Shown: positions 8,008 to 53,277 of the stretch, in pieces
Layout: each line of letters opens with the position of its first letter
Numbering within the stretch: position 1 is the stretch's first letter
From: Alphaproteobacteria bacterium
GTDB lineage: Bacteria; Pseudomonadota; Alphaproteobacteria; CACIAM-22H2
Assembly (NCBI GenBank): GCA_017308135.1
Contig: JAFKFM010000006.1
Span: 127,724-191,723, forward strand
Length of the DNA: 64,000 bases
Reading direction: 5' to 3'
Made by a program: the position numbers and the translations under genes
Notes under the pieces: generated by a model
Database searches by the model: none
Seen by the model: the letters and a program-made list of their open reading frames with translations, nothing else
Told to the model about the DNA's origin: nothing

Positions 8008-8901
8008 TCAGCCGCGTCCCGCGCGGGTGACGAGGGCGAGACCGGCGAGGATCGCCGCCATCGCGCCCCAGATATAAAGGCTGTGCGTCTCGCCGAAGAA
8101 CAGCCAGCCCCAGAACACGCCGAAGATCGTGCTGATGAATCCGGTCTGGCTGAAAAAGACCGGCCCGGCGAGCCGCATCACTTCGAAAAACAGCAGCGAC
8201 GAAATCCAATACATCGCCGCCAGCGCGATCAGCGCCCAGTCGCCCGCATGGGCCGGCGGGATCGGAATATGGGTGCCCTGCCACAAGGCCAGCGGCAGCA
8301 AGGCGGCGACCGAGCCGACCTGCATCACGCCCGCCAGCGCGATCGAATCCACGCCTGCGGGCCTGGCGCGCGCCACGTAGATGTTCGACAGCGCGTAAAA
8401 GAACGGGACCAGCAGATTGAGCGCCACCCACGGAATCATCGCCGGATCGGGCAGGCTGGCGCGCGGGCCCAAGATCAGCAGCGTGCCGATCACGCCGAAG
8501 CCGATGCCCGCGACGCGCAGGGGATGGAACTTGTCCATCGCGAAACCCAGCGCCATCGCATAGGTCATGACCGGCGACAGCGTGTTGAGCATCGAGGCGA
8601 CGCCCGCGGGCACGTGCCCGACGACGAACGCCATCACCGTATTCGGGATCGCGACCGAGGTGGCGCCGGCCAGGATCGCGTAGCGCGTATGGGGGATCAG
8701 ATCGCCCGCCCGCACACCCCGCCACCTTGCGATGGCGAGCAAAGCGATCGCGGCCGTCGCGCAAACGAAGATCGTCCAGGCCGAAGGCGCGATCCCCTCT
8801 TGCATCCCGATCTTGGCGAGCGAAAACTGGGCGCCCCAAATGGCACCCATCGCAAACATGTAAACCAAAGCGCGGTATAAACGGGCGGGAGGAATCGACA
8901 T
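8008..8901 (-). CDS. DMT superfamily (EamA) transporter
   Basis: 297-residue inner-membrane protein with about ten hydrophobic segments arranged as two EamA repeats (residues about 15-140 and 155-290), as in drug/metabolite transporters. The substrate cannot be told. The ATG used at 8901 overlaps the start codon of the divergent gene within one CATG; an in-frame ATG at 8859 (MFAMGAIWGA) is the alternative and would separate the two genes. Neither start has a clear Shine-Dalgarno. Confidence 0.85.
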   Translation of the reverse strand: MSIPPARLYRALVYMFAMGAIWGAQFSLAKIGMQEGIAPSAWTIFVCATAAIALLAIARWRGVRAGDLIPHTRYAILAGATSVAIPNTVMAFVVGHVPAGVASMLNTLSPVMTYAMALGFAMDKFHPLRVAGIGFGVIGTLLILGPRASLPDPAMIPWVALNLLVPFFYALSNIYVARARPAGVDSIALAGVMQVGSVAALLPLALWQGTHIPIPPAHAGDWALIALAAMYWISSLLFFEVMRLAGPVFFSQTGFISTIFGVFWGWLFFGETHSLYIWGAMAAILAGLALVTRAGRG

Positions 8902-42108: not shown

Positions 42109-43095
42109 ATGGAGACGCCTTTGCTCGCCCCCGCTTTGCCCCCCGACGACGACGAACGCCTGCGGCTTTTGGCCGATCTGGCGATCCTCGACTCGCCGCC
42201 CGAAGAGCAATTCGACCGCATCGTGCGGCTCGCCAAAAAGATGTTCGACGTGCCGATCGCGCTGGTGAGCTTGGTCGACGCGAACCGGCAATGGTTCAAG
42301 GCCTGTATCGGCCTGCCGGTGCGCGAAACCGGGCGCGACGTGTCGTTTTGCGGCCACGCGATTTTGGGCGACGAGATTTTCGTGGTCGAAGACACTTACG
42401 ATGATCCGCGCTTCGCCGATAATCCGCTGGTGATCGGCGCGCCGTTCATCCGCTTCTATGCGGGCCAGCCGCTGCGCGTCGCGGGCGGCCTTAAGATCGG
42501 CACGCTTTGTATCATCGATACCGCACCGCGCGATTTCCCCGCCGAAGATCGCGCGGCGCTACGCGATCTTGCCGCCGTGCTGGAACGCGAACTGGCGGCG
42601 ATGCATTTAGCGACGGTCGACGAGTTGACCGGCTTGACGAACCGGCGCGGCTTCGCGGCGCAAGGCCAAAAGGCGTTTAGCCTGGCGCGGCGCTTGAAGC
42701 TGCCGATGGCCGCAATCGCCTTCGACCTCGACAAGTTCAAAGCGATCAACGACACCTACGGTCACGCGACCGGCGATGCGGCGTTGCGCGTGTTCGCCGA
42801 CGCGCTGCGCCGTTCGGTGCGCGATGCCGACGTAACGGCAAGGCTGGGCGGCGACGAGTTCGCGGCGTTGCTGATCGATTGTCCGGCCGACCGGATCGAC
42901 GCGGTGATCGCGCGCATCCGGACGCTTATCGTCGCGCGCGTCACGGAAACGGGTTTCCCCGCCGCCATCGAATTCAGCGCGGGCTTCGCCGCGATCGACG
43001 CCGATGCCGCCGCGGATTTCGACGCGGCGATGGCGCAAGCCGATGCGGAAATGTACCGGCGGAAAAACGCGCGCAAAGCCGCGCGCGGCGCTTAG
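42109..43095 (+). CDS. GAF-GGDEF diguanylate cyclase
   Basis: 328-residue soluble c-di-GMP synthase. GAF domain about 18-160 (DRIVRLAKKMFDVPIALVSL, SFCGHAIL), linker DELTGLTNRRGF at 171-182, and catalytic GGDEF at 247-251 in ARLGGDEFAAL. The inhibitory I-site RxxD (RDAD, 238-241) stands the usual five residues before GGDEF, so product inhibition is expected. ATG 42109 is the family-like start. Its stop overlaps the convergent ABC-F stop by 4 nt. Close to a PilZ chemoreceptor, which could read its product. Confidence 0.93.
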   Translation: METPLLAPALPPDDDERLRLLADLAILDSPPEEQFDRIVRLAKKMFDVPIALVSLVDANRQWFKACIGLPVRETGRDVSFCGHAILGDEIFVVEDTYDDPRFADNPLVIGAPFIRFYAGQPLRVAGGLKIGTLCIIDTAPRDFPAEDRAALRDLAAVLERELAAMHLATVDELTGLTNRRGFAAQGQKAFSLARRLKLPMAAIAFDLDKFKAINDTYGHATGDAALRVFADALRRSVRDADVTARLGGDEFAALLIDCPADRIDAVIARIRTLIVARVTETGFPAAIEFSAGFAAIDADAAADFDAAMAQADAEMYRRKNARKAARGA

Positions 43096-44714
43096 CCGCG
43101 CAGGCCCGGCGCTTCCTGGCCCGTGCGCGCGACGTATTCGACATAACCGCCGTCGTAGCGATGCACGCCGTCGGGCGTGATTTCGAGCACGCGGTTGGAC
43201 AAAGCCGCCAGGAAATGCCGGTCGTGGGAGACGAACAGCATCGTCCCTTCGTAATCGGCCAAGGCCGCGATCAGCATTTCCTTGGTCGCGATGTCGAGAT
43301 GGTTCGTCGGCTCGTCGAGCACCAGGAAATTCGGCGGATCGTAGAGCATCAACGCCATCACGAGGCGCGCCTTCTCGCCGCCCGACAACACGCGGCAGCG
43401 CTTCTCCACATCGTCGCCCGAGAAGCCGAAGCAACCGGCGAGCGTGCGCAAACTGCCTTGGCCCGCGCGCGGAAACGCGTTCGAGAGCTGTTCGAAAACC
43501 GTGTTGTCGCCGTCGAGCAATTCCATCGCGTGCTGGGCGAAATAGCCGAGCTTGACCGAACCGCCGAGCGTGACGATGCCCGCATCGGGCTCGGTCGAAC
43601 CGGTGACGAGTTTCAATAGCGTCGACTTGCCGGCCCCGTTGACACCCATCACGCACCAACGCTCCTTGCGCCGGATCATCAGGTCGAAACCGTCGTAGAT
43701 CTTCTTCGCGCCGTAGGCTTTGGCCACGCCCTTCAACGTCACGACATCGTCGCCCGAGCGCGGCGGGGCGGGAAAATCGAACGCGACGGTCTGGCGGCGG
43801 CGCGGCGGCTCGATCTTCTCGATCTTGTCGAGCTTCTTCACCCGGCTTTGCACCTGGGCGGCGTGGCTGGCGCGCGCCTTGAAACGCTCGATGAATTTGA
43901 TTTCCTTGGCCAGCATCGCCTGCTGGCGCTCGAACTGCGCCTGCTGCTGCTTTTCGTTCTGCGCGCGCTGGGCTTCGTAGAATTCGTAGTCGCCGGAATA
44001 GGTGTTGAGAGTACCGCCGTCGATCTCGACGATCTTGCCGACGACGCGGTTCATGAAGGCGCGATCATGCGCGGTCATCATCAACGCGCCGTCATAATTC
44101 TTCAGGAACGCTTCCAGCCAGATGATGCTTTCGATGTCGAGATGGTTGCTGGGCTCGTCGAGCAGCATCACGTCGGGCCGCATCAGCAGAATGCGCGCGA
44201 GTGCCACGCGCATCTTCCAGCCACCCGACAGCATGCCCACATCGCCGTCCATCATCTCCTGGCTGAAGCCGAGCCCCGCCAGGGTTTCGCGCGCGCGCGC
44301 GTCGAGCGCGTAGCCGCCCAACTCCTCGAACCGCGCTTGGACCTCGCCGAAGCGTTCGACCAGCGTGTCGAGTTCGTCGGCGTGATCGGGATCGCCCATT
44401 TTGGCTTCGAGGCTGCGCAGCTCCGCCGCGACTTCCGACACGGGGCCCGCCCCATCCATCGTTTCGGCGACGGCGCTGCGCCCGGACATTTCGCCCACAT
44501 CCTGGCTGAAATAACCGATCGTGGTGCCGCGCTCGACCATCACCTGGCCTTCGTCCGGCGGCTCTTGGCCCGCGATCAGGCGGAAGATCGTCGTCTTGCC
44601 CGCCCCGTTGGGGCCGACAAGGCCGATCTTCTCGCCGCGATTGAGGACGGCCGACGCCTCGATGAACAGAATTTGCGCGCCGTTGCGCTTGGAGATGTTG
44701 TCGAGGCGGATCAT
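43092..44714 (-). CDS. ABC-F family ATPase (ribosome-associated, YbiT/Uup-like)
   Basis: 540-residue soluble protein with two ABC domains and no membrane part. Domain 1: GPNGAGKTTIF near 34, LSGGWKMRVALARIL, LLDEPSNHLD; linker about 240-310, rich in Gln/Lys, as in translation factors; domain 2: GVNGAGKSTLL near 350, LSGGEKARLVMALML, VLDEPTNHLD. ABC-F proteins act on the ribosome or give antibiotic resistance. The ATG at 44714 (MIRLDNISK) fits the family. A repeated promoter-like element lies just upstream (44751). Confidence 0.92.
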   Translation of the reverse strand: MIRLDNISKRNGAQILFIEASAVLNRGEKIGLVGPNGAGKTTIFRLIAGQEPPDEGQVMVERGTTIGYFSQDVGEMSGRSAVAETMDGAGPVSEVAAELRSLEAKMGDPDHADELDTLVERFGEVQARFEELGGYALDARARETLAGLGFSQEMMDGDVGMLSGGWKMRVALARILLMRPDVMLLDEPSNHLDIESIIWLEAFLKNYDGALMMTAHDRAFMNRVVGKIVEIDGGTLNTYSGDYEFYEAQRAQNEKQQQAQFERQQAMLAKEIKFIERFKARASHAAQVQSRVKKLDKIEKIEPPRRRQTVAFDFPAPPRSGDDVVTLKGVAKAYGAKKIYDGFDLMIRRKERWCVMGVNGAGKSTLLKLVTGSTEPDAGIVTLGGSVKLGYFAQHAMELLDGDNTVFEQLSNAFPRAGQGSLRTLAGCFGFSGDDVEKRCRVLSGGEKARLVMALMLYDPPNFLVLDEPTNHLDIATKEMLIAALADYEGTMLFVSHDRHFLAALSNRVLEITPDGVHRYDGGYVEYVARTGQEAPGLRG

Positions 44715-44750
44715 GTGTCGCGGGCGTTCCAAAAGAAACGCCGGGCGGGG

Positions 44751-44804
44751 CGCCCGGCGCGTCGAGGCCGCGCTTAAATCACGTTAGGGCGCTTGCGTCC
44801 AGAC
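44751..44804. repeat. Dispersed element, copy 1 (between ABC-F gene and lysE)
   Basis: About 52 bp matching copy 2 at 45549 with five differences. Read on the minus strand, towards the ABC-F gene, it contains TGGACG, 17 nt, TTTAAG, a spacing that would suit a promoter. The core GCGCTTAAAT with TTGCGTC downstream is shared by all three copies. Confidence 0.65.
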
Positions 44805-44833
44805 CGGCGGCGGGCGCCGCGACACGCGCGGAT

Positions 44834-45478
44834 TCAATCGTTCGGCCGGCCGGTCAAGGCGAGCCGTGCGGCCAAGCCGATAAAGAACACGCCCGCGATC
44901 CCGTCGAGCCAGCTTCCGAAGCGCGTCCGGGCGAGCCAGCCCGACGCTTTGCCGGCGGCGAGCCCGACCGCGAGCAGGAACGTCAAGCCGATGGCGTTAT
45001 GGATGCAGCCGAGCAGGAACACCTGAAGCCCGACATGCCCCAATTGCACGCTGACGAATTGGGGCAGCAGCGCCAAATAGAAGACGATGACTTTCGGGTT
45101 CAGAATATTCGTGAAGAACCCGCGCAAGAAAACCCGCCACACGGAGACGTCTTGGATTTTCTGCGCGAGTGCCGCCGATCGGTCGTTGCGCAAGAACGAT
45201 CGGATCGCTTGAACGCCGAGCCAGGCGAGATACAAGGCGCCGGCGATTTTCATCGTCTCGAACGCGACGGGCGAAGCCGCGATCACCGCCGATACGCCGA
45301 GTGCCGCGAAGATCGCGTGAAAAAACGAACCGGCGCCGATGCCGAGCGCCGACGCGACGGCGCCCTTCGCCTTGTGCCGCATGCCGCTCGCGACGACGAA
45401 CATCGTGTCCGGCCCCGGCGAAAACGCCAAAGCCGCCGCCAGGACGATGTAAGCGGCGGTCAGGCTAGGATCGAGCAT
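44834..45478 (-). CDS. LysE/RhtB family amino-acid exporter
   Basis: 214-residue inner-membrane exporter with about six helices. N-terminal AFSPGPDTMFVVASGMRHK near 17-35 is the LysE/RhtB signature, followed by LGIGAGSFFHAIFAALG and the mid block GFFTNILNPKVIVFYLALLP near 120-140. It exports amino acids or derivatives such as homoserine or threonine. ATG 45478 has GAAGGAA about 9 nt upstream. The gene is bracketed by copies 1 and 2 of the dispersed element. Confidence 0.9.
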   Translation of the reverse strand: MLDPSLTAAYIVLAAALAFSPGPDTMFVVASGMRHKAKGAVASALGIGAGSFFHAIFAALGVSAVIAASPVAFETMKIAGALYLAWLGVQAIRSFLRNDRSAALAQKIQDVSVWRVFLRGFFTNILNPKVIVFYLALLPQFVSVQLGHVGLQVFLLGCIHNAIGLTFLLAVGLAAGKASGWLARTRFGSWLDGIAGVFFIGLAARLALTGRPND

Positions 45479-45501
45479 CGCGCAATTTCCTTCGAGATTT
45501 A

Positions 45502-45527
45502 CCAATGTCCTGGCTGAAATAACCCAT
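45502..45527 (-). pseudogene. Relic of ABC-F coding sequence upstream of lysE
   Basis: 26 bp that match the ABC-F gene at 44494-44519 in 22 positions, including 17 identical bases in a row (45508-45524 against 44500-44516). In the ABC-F frame both encode GYFSQD-V/I-G. The fragment lies directly beside copy 2 of the upstream element, so this looks like a deleted second copy of the promoter and part of the 5' coding region. Confidence 0.6.
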
Positions 45528-45548
45528 GGCAGGGCAAGCTTCGGCCTT

Positions 45549-45600
45549 CGCCCGGCGCATCGAGGTCGCGCTTAAATCACGTTCGGGCGCGTGCGTCCAC
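45549..45600. repeat. Dispersed element, copy 2 (between lysE and histidine kinase)
   Basis: 52 bp in the same orientation as copy 1 and 47 of 52 identical. On the minus strand it keeps TGGACG, 17 nt, TTTAAG, pointing toward lysE. With copy 3 it brackets the histidine kinase gene as direct repeats. Confidence 0.65.
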
Positions 45601-45723
45601 ATCGACTGCGAATCAAACTCGTTCCAGTCCGAAACAGTCGCTGCGCGACAAATCGACGCTCTTTGGAATTACGGGACCGCCCCCTATGGTATCGCGGTTG
45701 TGGTCGAATAAATACGAAACGCA

Positions 45724-47703
45724 ATGACCTTCTCGCGAACCACCACGAAATACGCATTTGCCGGTTTCATCGTGAGCGCGGTTCTTTCCACGTTCGCGAG
45801 CCTTATGGCGATGCGCGAATGGCAGAACGAAACCGCGAGGAACATCGATTCGTTCCACAGCATCGCGCAGACCGTGGCACGATCCGTCGGCAGCAAGGTC
45901 GCGTTGCGATTGCGCGGCTTGTCGGTGCTCCACGACGCGATACGCAACGGATCGGTTGCGATCGGCGGGAGTTTCGAAACCGCCGCAGCACTCGTCGACG
46001 GAAGTTCCGGGGGTTATTTGGCCGTCAACTGGATCGACGCGGAACGCCGGATCGTTCAAGTGTGGCCCGAAGCGCCCAATCGCAACGCCCTGGGCCGAAT
46101 CGTCGGGCAAAGCCCCGCGGTTATGGCGCTGCTCGAAGACGCCGCGCGAAGCGACGCGCCGCGCGCCACGGGCGTCGTCGATTTGTTTCAGGGCGGACAA
46201 GGTGTGGCCGTCTATTACCCGATCCGGCGGGACGGCGCGTTCGACGGATATCTGAATGCTGTCTTCCGGCTCGGCGATCTCGACGCGGATCTGCTCGCGA
46301 TCGTGCCCGACGGGCTGACGCTGCACTTCGCCGATCCGGGTCATCCGGCCGTCCATCCGCAAACGGTGATGCAGACCGCCGAAGGATATCTGCTGTCCTT
46401 CCACCAGCGCCTGTTGAATCAGACCTTTCACATCGACGTCGCGTTGGCCCGTAGCGAGGGACGGACGAGCGATCGCTACCTGTATCTCGGCTGGGAAATA
46501 TTCCTTTGCGGTCTGATCGGCCTGACGTTGAGCGTCTATCTGATCTGGTCGCGCCGCGCCCGCGCGGAGGAAGCGCTGCTTGCGAGCATCCTGCGCTCGA
46601 GCCCGATCGCGTTCGTCTGCGTCGACCGAAGCGGCGCCATCGTGAAATTCAATCCGGCGGCCGAAGCGATGTTCGGATTGAAATCGTCGGAGATGATTTC
46701 GAGATCGATCGAAACGCTCGTCCCGAAGGAGGGCCGCGCGAAACACAAGGAGCTGGTCGCCGATTTCCTCCGCTCCGATGTCGAACATATGTTCATGGGC
46801 GATTGGCGGAAAATCGTCGCCGTGCGCGCGGACGGCTCGCAGTTCCCCGTTTCGATTCTGCTGACGAAAGCGGTGGTCGATGGCGATTCGATCACGACCG
46901 CGATGCTGACGGATATGACCGACGAGCAGAACCGTCAGCGCGATCTTATGCGGCTCGTCACCGACCGCGCCGACGCAGCCCAACGGGCCGAGACGGCCAA
47001 CCGCGCGAAATCAATGTTTCTCGCCTCGATGAGCCACGAGCTCAGAACGCCGCTGAACGCCATTATCGGCTTTTCTGATCTGATAAACCGCGAGATTTTC
47101 GGGCGGATCGAACCGCCGAAATATCGCGCGTATCTCAAGGATATCCACGAAAGCGCGCAAGGGCTGCTGGCGCTCATCAACGACATTCTCGACTACTCGA
47201 AAATGGAGGATGGCGAGCGGAATCTCGTCCGGGATCCTTTCGAGATCGACGGCATCGTCGAACCGGCGATCCGGACCGTCGCGGGCATCGCGGGCGACCG
47301 GAACATCGCCATCCTCTTCGATCGCGGGGACGCGTCGCCGATCGCATTGGGCGACGCGCGCGCGACGCGGCAGGTGCTTCTCAATCTGTTATCGAACGCG
47401 ATCAAGTTCTCGCCGAACGGCGCGACCGTAACCGTCAGAAGCGGAGTCGACGAAGCCCGGCGCGAGACTTTCGTCGAGGTCAAGGACAATGGCCCCGGGA
47501 TTTCACAGAAGGATCTGGCCAATCTTGGCAAGCCCTTCTATCAGGCGCGCGACAACAGCTTCGTCGCCGTGCAAGGCACGGGGCTCGGTCTTGCGATCTG
47601 CTTCGGGTTGATGCGATCGATGGGCGGCCGGATCGACATCCAATCGGTCGTCGGCCACGGCACGACGGCGCGCGCCGTCTTCAAAGCGCCCGAAAAGGCC
47701 TGA
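45724..47703 (+). CDS. Membrane PAS sensor histidine kinase
   Basis: 659-residue kinase: TM1 (about 10-30), a periplasmic sensor region (about 31-255), TM2 (ILGWEIFLCGLIGL-like, about 257-277), a PAS domain (about 285-400), HisKA with phospho-acceptor His in ASMSHELRTPLNAIIGF near 441, and HATPase with QVLLNLLSNAIKFSPNG (N box), KDNGPGIS (G1) and GTGLGLAI (G2). No receiver domain and no response regulator next to it, so its partner is elsewhere. The periplasmic domain is not recognised. Confidence 0.92.
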   Translation: MTFSRTTTKYAFAGFIVSAVLSTFASLMAMREWQNETARNIDSFHSIAQTVARSVGSKVALRLRGLSVLHDAIRNGSVAIGGSFETAAALVDGSSGGYLAVNWIDAERRIVQVWPEAPNRNALGRIVGQSPAVMALLEDAARSDAPRATGVVDLFQGGQGVAVYYPIRRDGAFDGYLNAVFRLGDLDADLLAIVPDGLTLHFADPGHPAVHPQTVMQTAEGYLLSFHQRLLNQTFHIDVALARSEGRTSDRYLYLGWEIFLCGLIGLTLSVYLIWSRRARAEEALLASILRSSPIAFVCVDRSGAIVKFNPAAEAMFGLKSSEMISRSIETLVPKEGRAKHKELVADFLRSDVEHMFMGDWRKIVAVRADGSQFPVSILLTKAVVDGDSITTAMLTDMTDEQNRQRDLMRLVTDRADAAQRAETANRAKSMFLASMSHELRTPLNAIIGFSDLINREIFGRIEPPKYRAYLKDIHESAQGLLALINDILDYSKMEDGERNLVRDPFEIDGIVEPAIRTVAGIAGDRNIAILFDRGDASPIALGDARATRQVLLNLLSNAIKFSPNGATVTVRSGVDEARRETFVEVKDNGPGISQKDLANLGKPFYQARDNSFVAVQGTGLGLAICFGLMRSMGGRIDIQSVVGHGTTARAVFKAPEKA

Positions 47704-47730
47704 GGCTCCGGCGATGCCTCGGCGCAGAAG

Positions 47731-47765
47731 CGGCACTTAAATAACGCTAAGGCGCTTGCGTCTAG
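47731..47765. repeat. Dispersed element, copy 3 (downstream of histidine kinase)
   Basis: 35 bp matching positions 44768-44802 of copy 1 in 29 places, same orientation. It keeps TAGACG, 17 nt, TTTAAG on the minus strand, but here that would point into the 3' end of the kinase gene. It marks the left boundary of the lower-GC island. Confidence 0.55.
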
Positions 47766-47822
47766 ATTGGCGGGACGGGCTCGATCCCGCCGAGGATCGG
47801 CACCTCGCCGAAGGGGCTATCC

Positions 47823-47881
47823 TTGATTATGGGCGCCATTTTTCATCCATAATCAACTTTAGCCGACAGAGTTGATTATGG
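47823..47881. repeat. Alternating inverted repeats at the left edge of the island
   Basis: TTGATTATGG at 47823-47832, its complement CCATAATCAA at 47847-47856, and TTGATTATGG again at 47872-47881. The middle copy can pair with either neighbour (10 bp with a 14-nt loop or 11 bp with a 14-nt loop), so two hairpins exclude each other. This could be an attenuator, a multi-site operator or a recombination/mobile-element end. AT-rich against the surrounding sequence. The rest of 47704-47968 shows nothing more than repeat copy 3. Confidence 0.6.
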
Positions 47882-47968
47882 AGGCGGCCGGAGGACGTAT
47901 TCGCACTCGTGGCGCACGGATTGGCGGCGTATACTCATGGTGGCTTTCATAATTCCTTGCGAGGTTTT

Positions 47969-48286
47969 ATGAGTATCCGCCTGCACAGTCGGAGAGCACA
48001 TATACGACGCCACCCATCCGGTAAGGCCGTTCTCGTACGCGCGTGCGTCGTCACATGCGAAACCGGCTCGAACGAACCCGGCAAAAGGTGTGCAACGACC
48101 TGCCCACGCTGTGACGCCAAAATCGTGAGTTTGAGAATGCCCAATAAGGGCTGGGTACACTACGAACGTGATATGTCGCGCATCAAGCATGCGTGCTTCA
48201 ATAGAGGCGAAGGACTAGGCAAGGGTCGAGACGGAGAGACGATCGATCTCTTCCTATCTAAGGGCTCTGACGCAACGAAGTCATAG
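47969..48286 (+). CDS. Small protein with Cys/His pairs (possible zinc ribbon), unknown function
   Basis: 105-residue basic protein, no signal or membrane segment. C45 and C48 in TTCPRCDAKI and H64, H74, C76 (GWVHYE, IKHACF) could bind one zinc. It begins MSIRLHSRRAHIRRHPSG and ends in a hydrophilic tail. GAGG lies 5-8 nt before the ATG at 47969; a longer in-frame start exists at 47909. Base composition is lower in GC than neighbours, like the dGTPase gene it converges on (6-nt stop overlap). I do not recognise the family; candidate DNA/RNA-binding or regulatory partner of the dGTPase. Confidence 0.6.
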   Translation: MSIRLHSRRAHIRRHPSGKAVLVRACVVTCETGSNEPGKRCATTCPRCDAKIVSLRMPNKGWVHYERDMSRIKHACFNRGEGLGKGRDGETIDLFLSKGSDATKS

Positions 48287-49633
48287 CTGATCAAATACTG
48301 ATCCCATGCGAGGGCTAAAAAGGCGATCGTATGTCTTGAGCAAATAGCCGTCTGTCATTCCTGCAACATAGTCACAAATCACACGCAAATCTTCGCCGCT
48401 CGCGACATATTCTTTATATGCGTCGCGCGGCAAGAAGGATCTTGGATCAGATTGCATCGCCTCGAACACCGAGACGACCATTTTTTGGCCTTTGAACTCA
48501 AGATGCTGGACGTTTGGACTCGTAATTACTTCCGCCACGATTAGATCTTGAAGTGCGCTGAGAAAATCACGATCGCTTTTTGGAACTCCGGCGCGAAAAC
48601 TCAGAATGGGGTCTTCAAACCCATCGCTAGTGTCAATACGAGTGCTAACAATGAAGTAATGGACAAGGCGTCCGATCGACCTCTTTCGGCCTCCACCTTC
48701 TCCGAATAATCCATTCACAAACGATTCGAACGCGGAAGCCTCATCAATATTTTTCTCGGGGTATCGCTGCATCAAAGAATACAGAAAGGGGCCACACTTT
48801 TCTGGAGTAATTGCCTGACGGAAAGTACGCTCCGAAATCAGCCCTAATGCGATGGCATCCTCAAGGTCGTGGACACCATATGCAATGTCATCTGCAACAT
48901 CCATGATGCTGCAATCGAAGGACTTGTGTGTTGGCTTCGAGTGTTTCCCTTCAATTGACTTGACCGCCTGGAAGCTATGTCTGTCTGAGTCGCTAAAAGG
49001 CGTCAAGATCCAGTCAACGACATCCCTTTCGCTATCCATAAAGCATTTCGGTGGCTTTGATTTATTTCGATCAAGCAATCGAATCGAAGTGGGCCGCTCA
49101 TCCATTGCTGGATAGCATCGCGGGTTCTTTACGTCTGAGAACGGTGCTGGGTATTTCAACAAACCCAGCAATGTTCTCCGACAGAGATCAGCCCCATCTT
49201 TTTCTGAAAAACTTTCTAACTTAGATAATATTCGAAGGGTTTGGCCGTTGCCCTCAAAACCACCGTTCTTGCGCATGCAGTAGTTTAACGCGACTTCACC
49301 CCCATGCCCAAAGGGTGGATGTCCCAAATCATGCGCGAAGCCAATTGCCTGAACCAATTTTTCATCTGGCAGAAAATGCGCGCCCGGATGCGCCGATTGT
49401 GACATCCGAAGTTGTCGAACAATACCGCCAGCGATCTGGCCAACTTCTAATGAATGCGTAAGGCGCGTTCGATAGAAATCGCTATCGCCGAGATTTAGGA
49501 TTTGCGTCTTGCCTTGAAGTCGACGAAATGATGATGAATGTACGATGCGTGAATAGTCAACGTCGTAAGGGCCACGTGAGTCATCGGGCTGTTGAGCCCA
49601 TTTGCTACGACGCTCAGTCCACGCATCCGACAT
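48281..49633 (-). CDS. dGTPase-like dNTP triphosphohydrolase (low-GC, probably acquired)
   Basis: 450-residue HD-domain enzyme that splits dNTPs to nucleoside and triphosphate. SFRRLQGKTQI at 35-45, HD ligands H60 (RTRLTHSLEVGQIAG), H101/D102 (FAHDLGHPPFGHGGE) and the distal Asp in VADDIAYG near 247 are all present. It differs from the compact housekeeping alphaproteobacterial homologue and is longer. Codon choice and base content (45-52% G+C in two lines counted, against about 62% in gyrB) point to transfer. Related enzymes defend against phage by depleting dNTPs; that role here is inference. Confidence 0.88.
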   Translation of the reverse strand: MSDAWTERRSKWAQQPDDSRGPYDVDYSRIVHSSSFRRLQGKTQILNLGDSDFYRTRLTHSLEVGQIAGGIVRQLRMSQSAHPGAHFLPDEKLVQAIGFAHDLGHPPFGHGGEVALNYCMRKNGGFEGNGQTLRILSKLESFSEKDGADLCRRTLLGLLKYPAPFSDVKNPRCYPAMDERPTSIRLLDRNKSKPPKCFMDSERDVVDWILTPFSDSDRHSFQAVKSIEGKHSKPTHKSFDCSIMDVADDIAYGVHDLEDAIALGLISERTFRQAITPEKCGPFLYSLMQRYPEKNIDEASAFESFVNGLFGEGGGRKRSIGRLVHYFIVSTRIDTSDGFEDPILSFRAGVPKSDRDFLSALQDLIVAEVITSPNVQHLEFKGQKMVVSVFEAMQSDPRSFLPRDAYKEYVASGEDLRVICDYVAGMTDGYLLKTYDRLFSPRMGSVFDQL

Positions 49634-49670
49634 CGAAACCTCACATTCTCAATTTCTCCGATAGCTCGAC

Positions 49671-53277
<3,607 letters not shown>

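Follow-up and report, generated by a model that had tools for sequence, protein, structure and literature searches.

The element examined here lies in a 64,000-nucleotide stretch of an alphaproteobacterial genome (the window; G000:C6:127724-191723), where three similar copies of about 60 bp stand in direct orientation beside an ABC-F family ATPase gene, and a LysE/RhtB-family exporter gene (lysE) and a histidine kinase gene each lie between two of them. Along the window the order is ABC-F(-), copy 1, lysE(-), copy 2, histidine kinase(+) and copy 3. Our results indicate that the three copies are homologous and confined to this single locus, and that the element corresponds to the region upstream of the ABC-F gene, a probable promoter. 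The copies probably arose by stepwise duplicative insertion, either Campbell-like or through tandem duplication, beside ABC-F in an interval that varies between strains. The duplication itself is well supported; the recombination route and the number and order of the events we infer.

Copies 1 and 2 are identical at 47 of 52 positions (44751-44802 versus 45549-45600), and copy 3 matches copy 1 at 29 of 35 (47731-47765 versus 44768-44802) and copy 2 at 25 of 35. A repeat search extended the family to 62 nt, over which copies 2 and 3 show 87% (54/62) and 69% identity to copy 1, respectively. The spacings between copies are 798 and 2165 nt, with 2.96 kb from copy 1 to copy 3 start to start, the longest exact run common to two copies is 17 nt, and TRGACG-N17-TTTAAG is present on the minus strand in 3/3 copies. 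An earlier reading made from the sequence alone (the sequence-only reading) had given these coordinates and identities exactly, had recognised the two hexamers with their 17-nt spacing in all three copies, and was right that the copies bracket lysE and then the histidine kinase. Its two shared sequences hold in part: GCGCTTAAAT is absent from copy 3, which has GCACTTAAAT instead, and copy 2 carries GTGCGTC in place of TTGCGTC.

A genome-wide search for the consensus, as the sequence-only reading had suggested, gave three matches, all local, so the element is not a common promoter. The 27-nt family pattern, allowing up to 3 mismatches, matched three times in the window, against 0 in 100 shuffles, and three times across the 5.2-Mb genome, which comprises 20 contigs and is 98.19% complete, always within 3 kb at this locus; TRGACG-N17-TTTAAG likewise gave three genome matches, all at this locus, and a reversed control pattern gave two. 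In 61 genomes searched with the pattern (this genome, 10 of the same genus, 12 of the same family and 38 of the same class), matches occurred in two, namely this genome and G001, a relative within its genus that has one clear copy, also at ABC-F. A set of 385 genomes of the class including this one, which overlaps with the 61 and contains neither G001 nor G009, a second relative in the genus, yielded this genome and one other with a 3-mismatch match. No exact match to the element was found in viral contigs.

Copy 2 is accompanied by a scrap of ABC-F itself. Downstream of copy 2, the ABC-F leader persists only as far as the first (5') arm of its hairpin and is followed by a 20-bp relic of ABC-F coding sequence containing a 17-nt exact run. 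The local score of the relic against ABC-F is 35, while 2000 shuffles reach a maximum of 31 and the next best unrelated segment of the window scores 24. The leader piece and the relic keep the order they have in ABC-F, where the distance between them is ~210 bp greater (spacings 798 and 1008). Therefore, copy 2 represents the remnant of a copy of the promoter and start of ABC-F, not of the promoter alone, as expected if the 5' end of ABC-F was duplicated as lysE arrived.

Close matches to the ABC-F protein (79-100% amino acid identity) are present in 14 genomes including this one. Of the other 13 genomes, G001 carries the element in full and G009 its ABC-F-side half; the remaining 11 orthologues show scattered matches with 6-7 substitutions, such as a 6-substitution match at -60 in G010 and a 7-substitution match at -85 in G019, or none. 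For the sequence-only reading this is a mixed outcome, since the element is not a common promoter and its conservation at ABC-F is limited to the closest relatives. On its question whether relatives carry a single copy there, G001 has one within the 3.2 kb seen, and G009 has half an element. In G009 the gene order is MCP, DUF, GGDEF, ABC-F and gyrB, with gyrB directly upstream of ABC-F and 81 bp (including the stop codon) from the last gyrB codon to the ABC-F ATG. Window positions 44000-50500 align with G009 up to 44785 and again from 49672, which correspond to G009 positions 8710 and 8717. Because these flanks nearly abut in G009, the 4.9-kb insert between gyrB and ABC-F is absent there. G001 has the same ABC-F neighbourhood and, in the stretch seen, the element once in front of it; further upstream is a different, A+T-rich island that carries an AAA ATPase gene (scoring over the cut-off for Pfam AAA, and weakly for Lon-like and TRIP13-like families). 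The contig of this 84% complete genome stops 3.2 kb upstream of ABC-F, with gyrB beyond view; gyrB was found in 7 of 11 genus genomes, not including G001. Conserved flanks with differing content are thus seen between gyrB and ABC-F for this genome and G009, and upstream of ABC-F for G001.

Comparison with G001 further relates the two outer copies to each other. The match between copy 1 and G001 begins 7 nt before TCTGGACG and runs across the hairpin into ABC-F; copy 1 and G001 agree at 63/71 positions. At the other end, the sequence upstream of copy 3 (flank U) aligns with G001 at a score of 44, which 0 of 1000 shuffles reach (maximum 29), and copy 3 together with flank U gives a 104-column blastn match of 76% identity. 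The single sequence of G001 is thus split in the window between copy 3 on the U side and copy 1 on the ABC-F side, so that the histidine kinase, copy 2 and lysE lie between two descendants of one segment. The direct repeat would then represent a ~55-60 bp overlap between the U side and the ABC-F side. Such a split is what duplicative insertion leaves, or what excision in the lineage of G001 would have removed.

In the history we propose, ~55-60 bp of the ABC-F upstream region would have been duplicated when foreign DNA entered alongside. Incoming DNA that brought along, or was linked to, part of the ABC-F 5' region probably integrated by (partly homologous) recombination, each event leaving a truncated promoter and ABC-F start, then the cargo, then the intact promoter and ABC-F. 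DNA with lysE and, in another event, DNA with the histidine kinase would have entered, and either may have been first; the truncated ABC-F piece at copy 2 would later have shrunk to ~20 bp. Three edges would result: U-copy 3 beyond the histidine kinase, copy 2-ABC-F relic-lysE, and copy 1-ABC-F. The suggestion of the sequence-only reading that each gene is a separate insertion or a recombination product agrees with this history, in which the copies are products of recombination or insertion, and with the variability of the region seen from G009, G001 and the distribution of lysE and the histidine kinase. Between the copies as they now stand, RecA is unlikely to recombine often, because the longest shared run falls short of the ~30 bp that PMC2884548 gives as the reported RecA threshold in E. 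coli.

Several observations weigh against this history. The ABC-F relic is only 20 bp long, and none was found beside copy 3 (score 22; 95% of shuffles score up to 27), so the histidine kinase step is less well documented than the lysE step. The further upstream flank of copy 1 is unlike that of G001 (333 of 1000 shuffles reach its score), and for copy 2 the upstream flank shows no significant likeness to that of G001 or to U (211 of 1000); homology between the copy 2 flank and G001, at which a longer alignment hinted, was dropped as it was not significant alone. Moreover, copy 3 scores 23 against G009, below the best of 300 shuffles (28), and a further copy may exist in G001, given where its contig ends and how complete the genome is. 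The divergence between copies 1 and 2 (54/62) is about that between copy 1 and G001 (63/71); this between-species level would mean either old events or import of the block in an already duplicated state.

The alternative that the histidine kinase-copy 2-lysE block came whole from a relative whose ABC-F upstream region was already duplicated, through homologous exchange within flank U and the flank at ABC-F, fits this divergence, which is as large as the local difference between species, and also the host-like G+C and third-position G+C (GC3) of lysE and the histidine kinase. We consider it unlikely, since no donor with the block was found in the genomes searched and since it merely shifts the duplication into another genome.

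Site-specific integration, with the element as an att-like core and the histidine kinase and lysE as cassettes stacked by successive integrations that each add a direct repeat, is improbable. It would account for the direct repeats that flank each gene on either side, for an interval that varies between strains and for the single copy, without the histidine kinase and lysE, in the stretch of G001 that was seen, the last being equally expected of homologous duplication. However, a Pfam scan of six window proteins, which left out smaller frames, found no recombinase, the element has no further copy in the genome, no exact viral counterpart and one 3-mismatch match in 384 other genomes of the class, and an ABC-F coding relic by copy 2 is unexpected for an att core. 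More speculative still, and very doubtful, is the idea that recombination is active at the ~60-bp region upstream of ABC-F, which would stack single genes and supply each with a ready promoter, like an integrase-less cassette array near gyrB. The integration hotspot of the sequence-only reading survives for the gyrB-ABC-F interval, on the basis of three genomes, but not for the element as integration site, as a duplicated ABC-F 5' region explains the repeats and also the coding relic by copy 2.

The sequence-only reading had also offered a mobile promoter, or a small transposable element, landing upstream of genes. Each copy indeed has promoter-like hexamers and two of them stand upstream of ABC-F and lysE; the genome-wide searches nevertheless largely refute this idea, which now seems scarcely credible. 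All three genome matches lie at one locus within 3 kb, the sole other clear copy in 60 further genomes is also at ABC-F, the viral contigs hold no exact match, homology extends into the ABC-F leader and coding sequence, copy 3 faces no gene in its own direction, and the outer 200 bp of the insert contain no convincing inverted repeat (best local match 13 nt, score 16, without shuffles and without a separate test of the ends of the single genes). Least credible of all, unrelated promoters made alike by a common sigma factor or regulator would share hexamers and spacing, but are refuted by identity that runs through spacer and leader over 62 nt and by the lack of other copies in the genome.

The promoter role of the element can be considered separately. 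In G009 the 3' end of gyrB replaces the upstream half of the element, yet TGGACG-17-TTTAAG is retained, with the -35-like hexamer lying within the last codons of gyrB; this survival in a half-replaced element makes a weak promoter role plausible. Weighing against it, the hexamers match the sigma-70 consensus at only 4/6 and 4/6 positions with a 17-nt spacer in all three copies, the 64-kb window has 28 such sites in all, these three among them, and a stricter promoter scan, which demands A and T at positions 2 and 6, absent from TTTAAG, omits the copies. We suggest that ABC-F and lysE may have weak promoters in copies 1 and 2, respectively, whereas copy 3, which is directed at no gene in its own direction, is likely a relic. 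The G+C-rich hairpin between copy 1 and ABC-F, with its T-run, could end upstream transcription or work as an attenuator. It is listed as terminator-like with 10 pairs, and its fold z-scores are -2.5, -2.7 and -2.1 in this genome, G001 and G009; since terminator-like sites in 43000-50000 are no commoner than in shuffles (9 versus 8.4), the case for the hairpin rests on conservation and fold. An Rfam search over 44600-48000 returned one match, SorX at 44733-44790 (-), which at 17.2 bits against a gathering threshold of 46.6 (E 1.1) was put down to chance similarity with a G+C-rich hairpin.

Table 1 Features of the gyrB-ABC-F interval, in window coordinates
Feature	Position	Strand	Remarks
ABC-F family ATPase gene, owner of copy 1	43092..44714	-	ATG at 44714; Pfam ABC_tran (2 stretches) and ABC_tran_Xtn
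G+C-rich hairpin, then TTTCTTTT	44734..44760	-	Between copy 1 and ABC-F ATG; sequence conserved in G001 and G009
Element copy 1	44751..44812	-	-35-like TGGACG 44801-44796, -10-like TTTAAG 44778-44773; orthologous to G001, and to G009 (ABC-F-side half)
lysE, LysE/RhtB-family exporter gene	44834..45478	-	ATG at 45478, AAGGA upstream; start chosen from sequence
ABC-F coding relic in lysE leader	45508..45527	-	19/20 identical to 44500-44519 in ABC-F (codons for GYFSQ)
Element copy 2	45549..45610	-	Divergent lysE/histidine kinase gap; -35-like 45599-45594, -10-like 45576-45571
CHASE-PAS-HisKA-HATPase histidine kinase gene	45724..47703	+	Domains from Pfam; opposite orientation, between copies 2 and 3
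Element copy 3	47714..47775	-	-35-like 47764-47759, -10-like 47741-47736; directed into histidine kinase 3' end, antisense
Flank U	47769..47820	-	~52 bp upstream of copy 3, homologous to sequence upstream of the single copy of G001
Anti-phage-type dGTPase gene	48281..49633	-	G+C 48% (low); adjoins gyrB, same insert
Open frame ending with gyrB	49671..52697	-	gyrB stop codon marks the far edge of the insert; G009 alignment resumes at 49672

From gyrB to ABC-F the interval reads gyrB(-), dGTPase(-), a 125-aa frame(+), copy 3, histidine kinase(+), copy 2, lysE(-), copy 1 and ABC-F(-) (Table 1); the 125-aa frame has no Pfam match. The ABC-F product, for which the Pfam scan used a frame from an upstream TTG, matches NCBIfam ribo_prot_ABC_F at 409.8 bits (cut-off 380), and its relatives in GTDB, viewed as the best 80 of 590 loci, reach a top identity of 85% among the matches listed. 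The lysE product matches Pfam LysE at 130.9 bits (cut-off 25.6) and NCBIfam 2A76 below its cut-off; no match at 1e-30 was found among the 10 other genus genomes. For the histidine kinase the best match in the genus is 63% identical and lies on another contig, with DNA homology limited to the gene. Plasmid records gave no donor lead, with 822 matches for LysE, all below 60% identity, and at least 5000 for the histidine kinase, all counted ones below 60%. The dGTPase is supported by NCBIfam NF041026 (540.7 bits, cut-off 400) and by PADLOC dGTPase (E 1.1e-144), and is missing from the corresponding place in G009, where the gyrB-ABC-F locus only, and not the rest of the genome, was searched.

Several side observations concern the same neighbourhood. 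Beside flank U, the stretch 47815-47882 contains TTGATTATGG in three places, two of them in direct and one in inverted orientation, a number that 0 of 100 shuffles give; it resembles an operator or hairpin and adjoins a 25-aa frame near copy 3 that was found in this genome only, of 23 searched. The sequence after the gyrB stop differs, by eye, among seven genus members, and the gyrB 3' neighbourhood thus seems labile in the genus. Two of 11 genus genomes contain GAAAGTTTGAGAC: G001 has it once, upstream of ABC-F (L036:1-3130), and G004 has it twice, inverted, just past gyrB (L148/L151). G010 carries TTTGAGACT after gyrB, and a TTTGAGACT pair 8-30 nt apart occurs in G001 only, among 23 family genomes. 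The GAAAGTTTGAGAC and TTTGAGACT sequences are possibly ends of a shared mobile element.

Campbell-type (single-crossover) integration and tandem duplication leave a truncated gene copy, the cargo and an intact gene copy in direct orientation. The layout here is the same, with the difference that hardly anything is left of the truncated copy. Defence-gene hotspots lie between core genes, and the present interval is like them in being variable and in carrying an anti-phage-type dGTPase gene in this strain and, upstream of ABC-F in G001, an AAA ATPase gene; in contrast, our view of the neighbourhood comes from three genomes, no mobilising enzyme was seen, and the genes of G001 are not identified as defence genes. 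The locus also resembles the microdiversity loci of PMC2884548, in which short stretches particular to a strain interrupt conserved sequence; 10-18% of these stretches have flanking direct repeats, and homology-assisted illegitimate recombination is proposed there as one cause. Variable segments flanked by direct repeats are common to both; compared with that description, the repeat here is a gene's own upstream region, is present in three copies, is accompanied by a coding relic and separates whole single genes.

The scars at this locus fit ordinary gene acquisition, not a jumping promoter. The locus is a readable record of gene entry into a variable interval between core genes, for which two relatives offer two different 'before' states and in which recombination is marked by a fragment of the adjacent gene. 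Should lysE be driven by copy 2, the newcomer would have gained a promoter at once through the duplication. Moreover, the gyrB-ABC-F interval is a place to seek defence genes in this genus.

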